Assembly: GCA_002479215.1 (NCBI GenBank)
Contig: DLME01000110.1
Span: 6,668-29,161, forward strand
DNA: 22,494 nt
Direction of reading: 5' to 3'
Origin: Syntrophaceae bacterium UBA7544
GTDB lineage: Bacteria > Desulfobacterota > Syntrophia > Syntrophales > Smithellaceae
Each line of letters starts with the position of its first letter. Position 1 is the first letter of the stretch. The notes beneath the pieces are model-generated. The model was not told the origin of the DNA. It made no database searches and saw nothing but the letters and a program-made list of their open reading frames with translations. This document shows positions 15,445 through 19,738 of this stretch, in pieces. The translations under genes were made by a program, and so were the position numbers.

Positions 15445-15689
15445 AATCACGGGCATAAATTACAAAGCGCGCTTTGTAATTTATGCCCTCCGCTGTGCGG
15501 GATCAATTCAGCTAACAAATATTGCTACGCCCTGCTGGCAATATTTTAGTTTCATTGATTCGACTAACAAACTTCAATGCGTTTCACTTTTGAAGTTTGG
15601 GTCTCAAATCCCGTGTCGCTTCGCTCACGGGATAATTCAACTAACGCTTCAAACTTCGCTACGCTCGTTTTCAGCGAGTTTCATTAAAA
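15445..15689 (-). repeat. Multi-hairpin repeat element, copy A
   Basis: Read on the minus strand it starts right after the tRNA CCA end and contains, in order: a bulged hairpin (about 15671-15649); a GC hairpin with 8-bp arms (15633-15626/15615-15608); a 10-bp hairpin (15599-15590/15577-15568); a 9-bp hairpin (15546-15538/15525-15517); a small CCGC/GCGG hairpin; and a perfect 38-base palindrome (15488-15451). Three of the hairpins have 12-base loops. The linker GTTAGYYGAAT recurs three times (15645-15635, 15568-15558, 15516-15506). It ends in CCCGTGATT. The same element is found again at 19625-19738. No coding potential is apparent. Confidence 0.8.
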
Positions 15690-15764
15690 TGGAGCGGGCG
15701 ATGGGGCTCGAACCCACGGCGTCCAGCTTGGGAAGCTGGCATTCTACCACTGAATTACGCCCGC
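15690..15764 (-). tRNA. tRNA-Gly (anticodon CCC)
   Basis: The complete cloverleaf reads on the minus strand: acceptor GCGGGCG (15764-15758) paired with CGCCCGC (15700-15694); D arm with AGTGGTAGAAT; anticodon stem CCAGC/GCTGG around loop TTCCCAA, giving anticodon CCC; T arm GTGGG-TTCGAGC-CCCAT; discriminator T and an encoded CCA (15692-15690). It decodes GGG glycine codons. A good sigma70-type promoter lies just upstream and a hairpin cluster begins immediately after CCA. Confidence 0.97.
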
Positions 15765-15777
15765 TCGAGAATTGAGA

Positions 15778-15805
15778 ATCTTATTCAACAGCAATTATTT
15801 GTCAA
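15778..15805 (-). promoter_or_regulatory. Sigma70-type promoter of tRNA-Gly
   Basis: On the minus strand TTGACA (15805-15800) is a perfect -35 and TAAGAT (15783-15778) a good -10, with a 16-base spacer. The tRNA 5' end lies 14 bases past the -10, so the primary transcript would start at or very near the mature end. Confidence 0.75.
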
Positions 15806-15841
15806 GGTGTTTTTGGCTAACTTTGCAAATGTGGTAACCTA

Positions 15842-16183
15842 TTAATCAATATTTTTAATCAGCCCTTTTTTTAGGAATATTTTTATAACCGCGTCTGAAT
15901 TTTCGACAGTAAAACCAATACGCCACCATTTGTAACGGATGAAGGCGAAAAATATCTTGTCCCGTTTGTATCTCTGAAAATCCTTGGGAAACCAAGTTTT
16001 GAAATCTCCGGTGCCGTGGAAGCGGAATTTCCCATTCCAAGGGGAAGCTTTCTTAACGAAGATTTTTTCAATTTCGGAAAATAACACCATCCTGTCGCGT
16101 TCAAAAAAGCTATAACGCCGGAAAATAATGCTTCTATTCGTAATCACCACCAAAGAATCGGAATAAATAATATCTTCAGCCAT
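15842..16183 (-). CDS. Small PH-like domain protein, function unknown
   Basis: 113 residues with alternating beta strands and a final helix: IIYSDSLVVITNRSIIFRRYSF, VLFSEIEKIFVKKA, KWWRIGFTVENSDAVIKIFLKKGLI. The pattern 'strand, TNRSIIF, strand, EIEKI' is what bacterial PH/DUF304-like domains look like, so I call it PH-like. The protein has no signal peptide or membrane helix, and I recognise no catalytic motif. The ATG overlaps the hisD stop by eight bases, so it is co-translated with hisD, but no functional link to histidine synthesis is known to me. Confidence 0.7.
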   Translation of the reverse strand: MAEDIIYSDSLVVITNRSIIFRRYSFFERDRMVLFSEIEKIFVKKASPWNGKFRFHGTGDFKTWFPKDFQRYKRDKIFFAFIRYKWWRIGFTVENSDAVIKIFLKKGLIKNID

Positions 16184-17489: not shown

Positions 17490-17490
17490 A

Positions 17491-18741
17491 TTATTGTGCC
17501 ATCCTTTTTATATTCGCGCCCAATGCGGAAAATTTCTTCTCTATTTCCTGATAACCGCGGTCAATATGGTAAACGCGGGAAATTTCTGTTGTGCCTTGCG
17601 CCACAAGGGCCGCCAGAATCAGGGAAGCGGAAGCGCGCAAATCCGTTGCCATCGTTTGTGCTCCGCGCAAAGCAGGCACTCCCCGGACAATCGCGCTGCC
17701 GCCCTGAATAACGATATCGGCTCCCATCCGCGTGAGTTCACTGACATGCATGAAACGGTTTTCAAAAACGGTTTCGGAAATCACGCTCAAACCGCTGCCT
17801 ATGGACATATAAGCCATCATCTGCGCCTGCAGGTCGGTGGGAAATCCCGGATGAGGAAGGGTTTTGACATCAACACTGTGGATTTTTTTCCCCGCAGATA
17901 CTTTCAGGCCGCCTTCAATGGGCGAAATCTTCATGCCCGTATCCCGCAGTTTGTTGATTAATGCTTCCATATGATGAGGGTTGCAGCCGATTATGTTTAA
18001 TTCGCCGCGCGTCATGCCGGCGGCAATCATAAAAGTTCCCGCCTCAATCCGGTCGGGAATAATTGTGGCTTCTATAGGTTTTAGCGAGCTGACACCTTCA
18101 ATCGTTATTACATCCGTTCCCGCTCCGCTGATTTTCGCTCCCATGCCCTTTAAAACATCCGCCAGGTTGACAATTTCCGGCTCACAGGCGGCATTGTTCA
18201 GGGAAGTAGTGCCTTCAGCCAAAGTTGCCGCCATCATTATATTTTCGGTGCCGGTTACCGTGGGTATGTCAAAATATATATCCGCGCCTTTCAGTTTTTT
18301 GGCTTTGGCTTCAATATAGCCTTCATGCAATTCGACATGAGCACCGAGATCCTGCAGTGCCTTTATATGAAGATTTACCGGCCGGGCGCCGATGGCGCAA
18401 CCTCCGGGAAGAGAAACGCGCGCGACACCCATACGGGCGACCAGCGGCCCCAAAACTAAAACGGAAGCCCGCATCGTCTTGACTAAATCATAAGGAGCCG
18501 TATGGCTGATTATTTTATCGGCACTAATCTGGACAGTTTCATTGCCTTCGATTTGAGCGCCAAGGCTGCGCAAAAGTTTTTTTATTGTTTTGATATCCAT
18601 GAGATCCGGGATATTATGAAACGTATTGGTTCCGCAGGTCAAGAGCGCCGCGGTCAAAACCGGCAGTGCGGCATTCTTTGCTCCGCTGATATGAACATCA
18701 CCATGCAGAGGTTTACCTCCCTGAATAACTATTTTATCCAC
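17491..18741 (-). CDS. murA: UDP-N-acetylglucosamine 1-carboxyvinyltransferase
   Basis: 416 residues. It transfers enolpyruvate from PEP to UDP-GlcNAc, the first committed step of peptidoglycan synthesis. Lys22 lies in SGAKNAALPVL and the catalytic Cys115 in LPGGCAIGARPVNLH, so the enzyme has the fosfomycin-sensitive Cys form. HPGFPTDLQAQ with the conserved Asp is also present. The start is GTG at 18741, set by AAGGAG eight bases upstream and overlapping the prmC stop by eight bases. Confidence 0.98.
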   Translation of the reverse strand: MDKIVIQGGKPLHGDVHISGAKNAALPVLTAALLTCGTNTFHNIPDLMDIKTIKKLLRSLGAQIEGNETVQISADKIISHTAPYDLVKTMRASVLVLGPLVARMGVARVSLPGGCAIGARPVNLHIKALQDLGAHVELHEGYIEAKAKKLKGADIYFDIPTVTGTENIMMAATLAEGTTSLNNAACEPEIVNLADVLKGMGAKISGAGTDVITIEGVSSLKPIEATIIPDRIEAGTFMIAAGMTRGELNIIGCNPHHMEALINKLRDTGMKISPIEGGLKVSAGKKIHSVDVKTLPHPGFPTDLQAQMMAYMSIGSGLSVISETVFENRFMHVSELTRMGADIVIQGGSAIVRGVPALRGAQTMATDLRASASLILAALVAQGTTEISRVYHIDRGYQEIEKKFSALGANIKRMAQ

Positions 18742-19594
18742 TAATTTTTCTCCTTGCTCGAATTACGCGTGGCAAGCCGGCATAATCTCTTCTCACGCCT
18801 ATGTTGTCGTAAATTCCGGAATCCTCAATAATCTTCCCTACGCTTTTTTCCTGAGTAGCTCCTATCTCCAATAAAAGCCAACCATTTTTTTTAAAGTTGT
18901 TGCCCGCCTGATAAACCAATTTTTCGTAGAATTCCGTTCCACTCTCACCGGCCAAAAGTGCTTCTCGCGGCTCAAAGGTCTTCACTCCCGCAGGCAGTTT
19001 TTCATATTCTTCCGCCGCAATGTAGGGAGGATTGCAAACGATTATATCAAAAAAATCGTCAACTGAGTCAAATAAATCACTGCGGCGGAAATCAATTTGA
19101 TTTTCCAGTACCAGATTAAGGGCGTTTTTCCAGGCTACTCTGAGAGCGGCGGCGGAAATGTCGGTGGCCACTACTTGAGCTTGCGGCATTTCTTTGGCCA
19201 AAGCAATGGCTATCGCGCCGCTGCCCGTGCCAATATCCATAATCTTTATTTCGGGATAAGCAATTTTGCGGCAGATGCCGAGAGCTTCTTCCACAAGAAT
19301 TTCAGTATCCGGCCGGGGAATCAATACTGCGCTATTTATTTCCAGAGTGAAAGACCAAAATTCTTTGCGGCCGGTAATGTAGGCTACCGGTTCCCATTGC
19401 AATCTTCGGGCGCTGAGATTTCTAAATGCGGTAAGCTGTGTCTCGTTAATTGTTTTGTCCGGATTTTTGTAAAATTCCAGACGGTCGCAGCCCAGGCAAA
19501 AAGAAAGCAAAACTTCCGCGTCGAGCCGGGCGGAAGGAATATCCGCTGCTTCTAAAGCTTTTGTTGACTCATTGAGAATGTCATGAACGGTCAT
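18734..19594 (-). CDS. prmC: Release factor glutamine methyltransferase PrmC
   Basis: 286 residues from the ATG at 19594; the frame also has an ATG at 19615. I favour 19594 because GGAAA lies about nine bases upstream and the protein then begins MTVHDILNEST like its homologues. PrmC methylates the Gln of the GGQ motif in release factors RF1 and RF2. The N-terminal helical domain (IPSARLDAEVLL) is followed by a Rossmann methyltransferase with DIGTGSGAIAIALA (120-133) and NPPY (188-191). Its common upstream partner prfA is not here; hairpin element copy B lies directly before it instead. Confidence 0.96.
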   Translation of the reverse strand: MTVHDILNESTKALEAADIPSARLDAEVLLSFCLGCDRLEFYKNPDKTINETQLTAFRNLSARRLQWEPVAYITGRKEFWSFTLEINSAVLIPRPDTEILVEEALGICRKIAYPEIKIMDIGTGSGAIAIALAKEMPQAQVVATDISAAALRVAWKNALNLVLENQIDFRRSDLFDSVDDFFDIIVCNPPYIAAEEYEKLPAGVKTFEPREALLAGESGTEFYEKLVYQAGNNFKKNGWLLLEIGATQEKSVGKIIEDSGIYDNIGVRRDYAGLPRVIRARRKISG

Positions 19595-19624
19595 AGTGTT
19601 GTTTCCAAGCGCCATCTTTGTTTG

Positions 19625-19738
19625 TGAGACTCAAATTTTAAAAGTAAAACGCATTAAAATTTGTAAGTCGAGCAATCCCGCCAAAGGCGGAGGGTTGAAT
19701 ACCCCCGCAACTTGCTTTGGGGTTTCATACCCGTGATT
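19625..19738 (+). repeat. Multi-hairpin repeat element, copy B
   Basis: Shorter relative of copy A in opposite orientation. It has a 10-bp hairpin (19632-19641/19654-19663) whose 12-base loop matches copy A at 11 of 12 positions, then the linker GTAAGTCGAGCAAT, a CCGCC-AAA-GGCGG hairpin (19678-19690), and a long bulged hairpin (19692-19732). It ends in CCCGTGATT like copy A. Relative to A it lacks the first two hairpins and one middle hairpin unit. Confidence 0.75.

Follow-up and report, generated by a model that had tools for sequence, protein, structure and literature searches.

The stretch of DNA analysed here, which we call the window, comprises 22,494 nucleotides of the genome of Syntrophaceae bacterium UBA7544, a member of the Smithellaceae (assembly GCA_002479215.1, contig DLME01000110.1, positions 6,668 to 29,161 of the forward strand; C30:6668-29161 in our numbering of this genome, G000). 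It carries two copies of a multi-hairpin repeat element, located, as the original prediction made from the sequence had placed them, at 15445-15689 on the minus strand and at 19625-19738 on the plus strand. Copy 1 lies between a tRNA-Gly gene and rimP and is a composite array of modules in the order A-B-A-A-C, while copy 2 consists of one A unit and one C module. Our analysis led us to regard both as members of a large and apparently undescribed repeat family, abundant in Smithella-like bacteria, whose shape is kept while its letters change.

Read along the minus strand, copy 1 opens with an A unit at 15631-15687 (match of the covariance model R1 at C30:22298-22354), whose arms CGCT-GA-AAAC and GTTT-GA-AGCG contain an inner tandem GA/GA replacing two base pairs. 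It is followed by a B hairpin read from the sequence at 15610-15631, CCCGTG-AGCGAAGCGA-CACGGG, with a GCGAAGC tip; by a second A unit at 15554-15610 (model match C30:22221-22277) with arms CAAACTTCAA and TTGAAGTTTG, the hairpin on which the original prediction was built; and by a third A unit at 15502-15558 (model match C30:22169-22225), 52 nt from the preceding one, with the inner stem AAATATTGC/GCAATATTT. The array closes with a C module at 15445-15504, read from sequence and fold, which is made up of a GATC/GATT foot, a CCGC/GCGG hairpin, a long hairpin GGGCATAAATTAC...GTAATTTATGCCC and the end CCCGTGATT. On the plus strand, the A unit of copy 2 (19621-19677, model match C30:26288-26344) has the arms CAAATTTTAA and TTAAAATTTG, and its TGAGACT starts 10 nt from the called start of prmC on the opposite strand (open reading frame, ORF, at 18734-19615; PrmC by Pfam). 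The C module that follows at 19674-19738 has the same end, CCCGTGATT.

The two copies share a 47-nt stretch of the A unit on opposite strands (15560-15606 and 19625-19671, 85% complementary, also recovered by a repeat search). They are not full-length homologues, because copy 1 is a composite of three A units, one B hairpin and one C module and copy 2 combines a single A unit with a C module. Within the A unit the reported compensation is real: the 5' arm reads CAAACTTCAA in one copy and CAAATTTTAA in the other, the 3' arm TTGAAGTTTG and TTAAAATTTG, with two C-G pairs turned into two T-A pairs, and the 12-nt loop (AAGTGAAACGCA vs AAGTAAAACGCA) differs at one position. What had been described as a single terminal hairpin reads instead as a junction with an AATC or GATC/GATT foot, a short CCGC/GCGG hairpin and a second, variable hairpin; energy folding of copy 2 alone gives another pairing for this part. 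Both copies fold markedly better than shuffled sequence (z-scores of -6.38 for copy 1 and -3.72 for copy 2; for each copy, none of 200 shuffles gave an equally good fold). The pair of copies is by itself weak evidence; the pattern becomes strong with 50 units of the same genome.

The A unit spans 49 nt, TGARACT...AGTYGAAT, and recurs in tandem with a period of 52 nt, head to tail and with no cassettes between. For the covariation test, 50 own-genome units of exactly 49 nt were aligned without gaps, a fifty-first of 50 nt being left out, against a paired structure that we named ourselves. Pairing was found in 91.3% of the 1000 pair cells vs 70.4% after shuffling, 17 of the 20 pairs changed on both sides, and the covariation score was 0.562 vs 0.185 in shuffled alignments; none of 500 shuffles reached the observed value of any of the three measures, and sliding the partner columns by 1-3 positions lowered pairing to 24-39%. 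In 144 distinct rows fitted to the model, an alignment that for this reason leans to the structure, 95.8% of the cells were paired, the score was 0.572 vs 0.185 and 19 of the 20 pairs showed double changes. Our data support the proposal that it is the fold that is preserved.

From its foot inwards, the unit begins with an A/T-rich stem, followed by a tandem G.A/A.G mismatch present in all 50 own-genome units and in 143 of the 144 model-fitted ones, and by a 4-bp RACT/AGTY stem seen as GACT/AGTC, AACT/AGTT and CACT/AGTG among the 50. A 2-nt bulge leads to the 10-bp stem, which occurs in several sequence types, changing freely yet staying paired; one arm type, found in 10 of the 50 units, swaps two pairs for a second GA/GA. 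The distal part was described in 312 distinct units taken by sequence pattern and not by the covariance model, with the phage loci L279-L314 left out. Here the internal loop has AA on its 5' side in 232 units and GCA, GAA or GTA on its 3' side in 241, and the 2-bp stem of the tip carries a loop of the CGNAG type in 179. Of the 144 model-fitted units, 81 have C(GNA)G in their loop, against 9.2 expected. Oligonucleotides d(GCGNAGC) with GNA loops are described as exceptionally stable as DNA in the part of PMC4686876 available to us. Like arms in adjoining units are not avoided, since 2 of 15 pairs were near-identical with 2.9 expected.

Downstream of the A units lie hairpins with varied arms; a perfect stem of at least 5 bp was present at 113 of the 228 distinct starts. 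Among these B hairpins a C(GNA)G loop was present in 41 (5.9 expected) and lacking in 72. The C module is a junction with the foot AATC/GATT in 38 of 56 cases and the hairpin CCGC/GCGG in 51 of 56, and it continues with a variable hairpin GGGTAT.../...ATACCC to the end GTGATT. These 56 modules were picked out of 83 pattern matches because their second hairpin pairs, so the pairing seen in them does not count as independent support. We also noted an insert of 18-20 nt with the consensus AACCTAAAGGTCACRCGT (window 19759-19776) inside another hairpin directly after copy 2 (19748-19783); the same insert occurs at one place in A-unit loops of seven loci (L009, L017, L028, L036, L039, L040 and L058), and it looks expanded in other genomes (GAGGTCAC repeats).

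The expectation of further copies in this genome and its relatives was borne out. Used as blastn queries against their own genome (E up to 1), copy 1 gave 64 matches and copy 2 gave 46, and the covariance model returned 140 units in the 2.98 Mb (E up to 0.1, 150 of 1175 candidates scored). Since a limited number of candidates was scored per genome (150 in the own genome, 95 or 110 in genomes of the family, 14 in the class and phylum samples), all unit counts are lower bounds. Units were present in 44 of 51 genomes of the Smithellaceae, the family that includes Smithella, with 0 to 116 matches per genome at 110 candidates scored; the seven genomes without a copy are G001, G006, G014, G018, G030, G068 and G072, and the counts within the genus were 0, 0, 3, 4, 7, 80 and at least 110. 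Contigs labelled Smithella, Syntrophaceae or Deltaproteobacteria were the majority among the matches listed (80 of 110 stretches). One locus of Smithella sp., L111, lies within G081, whose hit positions are those of G029.

Outside the family, one of 24 sampled genomes of the same order had two units, and in a sample of the phylum 6 of 395 genomes were positive, all six belonging to the family. Beyond the phylum, the matches listed included contigs with the labels Bacteroidota, Flavobacterium and Ignavibacteriae, and five such genomes had 1 to 26 units. A sample of 395 genomes from the class to which G079, a Bacteroidota record, belongs contained 8 positive ones, each with a full-length model match. 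Binning errors are possible in single metagenome-assembled genomes, but three genomes gave 13-14 hits out of 14 scored. The divergent units show the same anatomy, some with longer tips, and L316 has a good unit.

Evidence of mobility came from G082, in which an identical 57-mer A unit occurs at seven sites with different surroundings, some of them inside the arm of an older unit, and with different modules following at different sites. This recurrence indicates that the modules multiply and combine differently. In the window, the gap beside tRNA-Gly that holds copy 1 measures about 305 bp, and the corresponding gap of the relatives G001 and G006, of the same genus, which lack the insert, about 75 bp (the tRNA was called by ARAGORN in L231 and is shown in L233 by sequence alignment only); the gap sequences have diverged, which leaves the exact junction of the insert unreadable.

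Two IMG/VR contigs, L279 and L280, carry three units each. L280, with a head protein gpT, I protease and portal, comes from a Mu-like phage, and L279 gave one tail-completion match. Of the 32 loci whose head gene is related to that of L280, only L283 carries a unit, at another place. All seven phage units (L279 at 1150, 1854 and 5864; L280 at 2005, 3002 and 7922; L283 at 6236) run antisense to the genes of the phage. Read along the gene strand, four of them border directly on a putative ATG that GGAG or AGGA precedes at Shine-Dalgarno distance, two abut a Shine-Dalgarno sequence and one lies within a called frame, a layout which suggests that the element end may serve as a ribosome-binding site in these phages. 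In some phage copies a short reading frame runs through the element. Copy 1 had no blastn match among known phages and plasmids, two further viral sequence patterns had no matches, and a third led to the contigs L410 and L411, neither of which was accepted by the covariance model. The related phage contigs L282, L310 and L313 have a different palindrome (GTCATTGCGAGACGCCGCTTCGGCGGCGTGGCAATC) in the gap after the gpT gene.

In bacterial genomes the arrays are mostly extragenic: among 148 arrays of the named loci, 128 were intergenic, 19 overlapped a called ORF and one was mixed, and of the 47 arrays of the own genome 39 were intergenic and 8 overlapped a called ORF. Units no more than 200 bp apart had the same orientation in all but one of the 148 arrays, single-unit arrays included. 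The loci L020 and L128 have a unit with other arms (TTGGCTTTTTT/AAAAAGGCC) directly after the stop codon of a frame, and the frame in L128 reads like a tyrosine recombinase by eye. Elsewhere in the window, positions 21562-22368 hold a gene for a papain-family cysteine protease (PF00112).

We also considered an element acting at the RNA level, in which hairpins within transcripts would stabilise 3' ends, serve as terminators or structure 5' leaders, with selection on RNA giving rise to the covariation. In its support, such covariation is a typical feature of structured RNA. Of 259 first units, 22 have a terminator-like hairpin with a T-run in front of them (35 of 4000 at random control sites), and 16 have a start site with a Shine-Dalgarno sequence on the other strand (65 of 4000; statistics on first units omit those with another module directly upstream, 193 of 270 being kept in one tally and 259 in the other). 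In addition, G.T pairs outnumbered A.C pairs at the tip of the 312 pattern-found units (50 vs 15), as G.U would in RNA. Against it stand the lack of any orientation bias to the neighbouring genes (ss/aa/as/sa of 40/33/29/26 in the named loci and 12/12/7/8 in the own-genome loci) and the antisense position of the seven phage copies. The 10-bp stem likewise lacks a clear excess of G.U (55 G.T vs 44 A.C in the pattern-found units), and no Rfam family corresponds: above the gathering score Rfam recognised only tRNA in the window, with a best weak match of E 0.79 at copy 1 and none at copy 2. We judge an RNA-level element to be unlikely.

As for the strand that folds, the near-equal numbers of G.T and A.C in the 10-bp stem do not designate one, whereas the tip pairs and all 144 model-fitted units (G.T 57 vs A.C 23) point, with moderate confidence, to the TGARACT strand, a result that carries no verdict on DNA vs RNA. 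The loop type and the lack of orientation relative to genes lean to DNA rather than RNA as the form that would be under selection.

Small palindromic repeats are common in bacteria, and the original prediction had compared the element with repetitive extragenic palindromic (REP) sequences and the bacterial interspersed mosaic elements (BIMEs) that they form. The comparison holds for size, number, position and hairpin tip, and fails for the GTAG head and the alternating orientation. Like the GTAG-REPs and BIMEs of Enterobacteria with REP-associated tyrosine transposases (RAYTs), as far as these are described in the parts of PMC2817692 and PMC3116915 available to us, the units are extragenic, exceed 100 copies and form composite arrays; they also share with them a GCGNAGC-type tip behind AA and compensated changes in the stem of an imperfect hairpin (PMC2817692, same parts). 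Relative to the GTAG-REPs described there, the present unit is larger, and its invariant tandem GA/GA and its C modules with a junction set it apart. The GTAG head is not in the unit consensus and was found in 9 of 344 contexts (searched for GTAG only, on the 5' side only, in the 12 nt upstream and the opening 12 nt of the unit), and the tandem units run head to tail, unlike the alternating orientation of BIMEs.

The tip AAGCGNAGCGCA, exact in 26 of the 312 units, is that of the E. sakazakii GTAG-REPs and is near the tips of C. koseri and K. pneumoniae in Table 1 of PMC2817692. The likeness of the tips may go back to a common ancestor, to shared recognition or to how stable the DNA mini-hairpin is in itself. 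This likeness is also an argument for a GTAG-less REP family moved by Y1 transposases (RAYT/TnpA_REP) that are gained and lost with phages or plasmids. Along the same line, Y1 genes occur in 38 of the 51 family genomes, the median unit count is higher, though not significantly, in genomes with Y1 (26 vs 5, p 0.30), and in 2 of 31 distinct Y1 loci, a subset of those known, units lie on both sides: in L422 at 394 bp before and 145 bp after the gene, in the same orientation, and in L419 at 46 bp before and 1.2 kb after it, in opposite orientation. Units were present within six of the second twenty Y1 loci (E below 1e-5).

The remaining evidence speaks against such a mover, which the original prediction had named as a candidate. 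PF01797, which matched in 5 of 14 control genomes, had no match in the genome of the window (93.8% complete) or in G019 (98% complete, with 118 hits), G027 and G060, while Y1 is present in the zero-copy genomes G014, G018, G030 and G068, being absent from the zero-copy G001, G006 and G072. Across the 51 family genomes Y1 and unit counts were not correlated (Spearman 0.17, p 0.22), 29 of the 31 Y1 loci had no unit pair, and the sole Y1 match of G062, whose hit positions match those of G082, has an in-frame TGA. Moreover, the Y1 genes of L419, L422 and several further loci have long terminal repeats of their own, and the units lie outside these. Such repeats bound several RAYT-like genes in L412-L430, e.g. 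GGGGTCAAGTCTCTTCTTG...AAGAGACTTGACCCC, which is the TIRYT arrangement; the part of PMC3733652 available to us describes similar arrangements, which occur here in the same genomes as the units, and the repeats differ from the units in having their own sequences (GGGGTCAAGTCT..., GGGGACAGCGCCC...). A resident Y1 transposase is probably not the mover, and we hold a GTAG-less REP family carried about by visiting Y1 enzymes to be improbable.

Other known repeats resemble the family in part. As far as described in the accessible part of PMC3733652, CGTC-REPs are likewise palindromic repeats found in several phyla without a dedicated transposase; their stems of 8-9 bp and loops of 4-5 nt contrast with a 49-nt multi-stem unit, and a CGTC head occurred in 1 of 344 contexts (12 nt before and first 12 nt of the unit). 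The BOX element of pneumococcus is likewise modular and composite, its middle units being repeated in tandem a variable number of times; it is set apart, by its description in the part of PMC3049150 available, by terminal inverted repeats, target duplications and another host group. For a reading as miniature inverted-repeat transposable elements of a DDE transposase, or as attC-like recombination sites, speaks that the units are short, non-coding and numerous, with nested insertions. The ends of the unit are short boxes, TGARACT...AGTYGAAT, that form the foot of a hairpin, no insertion sequence with such ends was met (no search was aimed at DDE or integrase families), and the tandem units succeed one another, head to tail, with no cassettes in between; we regard either origin as very improbable. 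No description of this hairpin family was found in the literature searched, most subscription journals and preprints being outside its reach. As the REP head and the alternating orientation are lacking and as, where GTAG-REPs have two inverted copies around a cognate RAYT gene, units lie on both sides in 2 of 31 Y1 loci here, we have not filed the family as REP, and it is best placed among extragenic palindromic mobile repeats.

Together, these results make it probable, in our view, that the element is a non-autonomous, hairpin-modular, REP/BIME-like family of short mobile DNA repeats. The TGARACT strand would fold as single-stranded DNA, a trans-acting enzyme would recognise the folded unit by its shape and copy or move modules, and insertions would survive where they are least harmful, that is, behind terminators and stop codons and in front of start sites. 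More tentatively, the repeats shared by phyla and phages could constitute a superfamily of their own among mobile DNA hairpins, under selection in the form of folded single-stranded DNA, with a GNA mini-hairpin tip and sheared tandem G.A, and spread by a non-Y1 enzyme that would read shape and not stem sequence, with replaceable arms and shuffled modules.

Several observations weigh against the family being mobile DNA selected as a folded single strand. Inspection by eye revealed no target duplication at the sites in phages and within the genus, where an exact empty site is lacking, and no cut site could be defined. No mover was noticed by eye, with no library search or clustering, among 110 ORFs between adjoining arrays. 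The enrichment of terminators and start sites may largely reflect intergenic position, because the random controls include coding sites. Transposition of the IS200/IS605 type, in which a Y1 enzyme cleaves folded single-stranded DNA, favours the lagging-strand template; in G019, unit orientations did not form runs (47 of 90 neighbours on the same strand vs 44.5 expected, p 0.34), and a link with GC skew was weak (p 0.027 at |skew|>0.03, p 0.14 over all windows). The balance in the 10-bp stem, and the excess of A.C over G.T across all pairs of the first 50 units (37 vs 23, largely in outer and basal pairs), add to this. GNA triloops form in RNA as well.

An autonomous version with a gene between units was also considered and rejected, as the 110 ORFs look like ordinary genes by eye, one of them (in L128) like a tyrosine recombinase. 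Recurrent protein families near the units (771 ORFs of the named loci, with uncurated starts) were, by eye, only large paralogous ones.

In summary, the units of this family number in the hundreds, covary strongly, often share one type of tip and include multiplied identical copies, and some closely related genomes have none. While the CGTC repeats, in the accessible part of PMC3733652, are a small palindromic family without a known dedicated mover, here the combination of strong covariation, identical copies and zero-copy relatives makes both the mover and the folded molecule, DNA or RNA, directly testable. The family also matters for annotation, since 19 of 148 arrays overlap called genes, and the elements at phage gene starts may supply ribosome-binding sequence.

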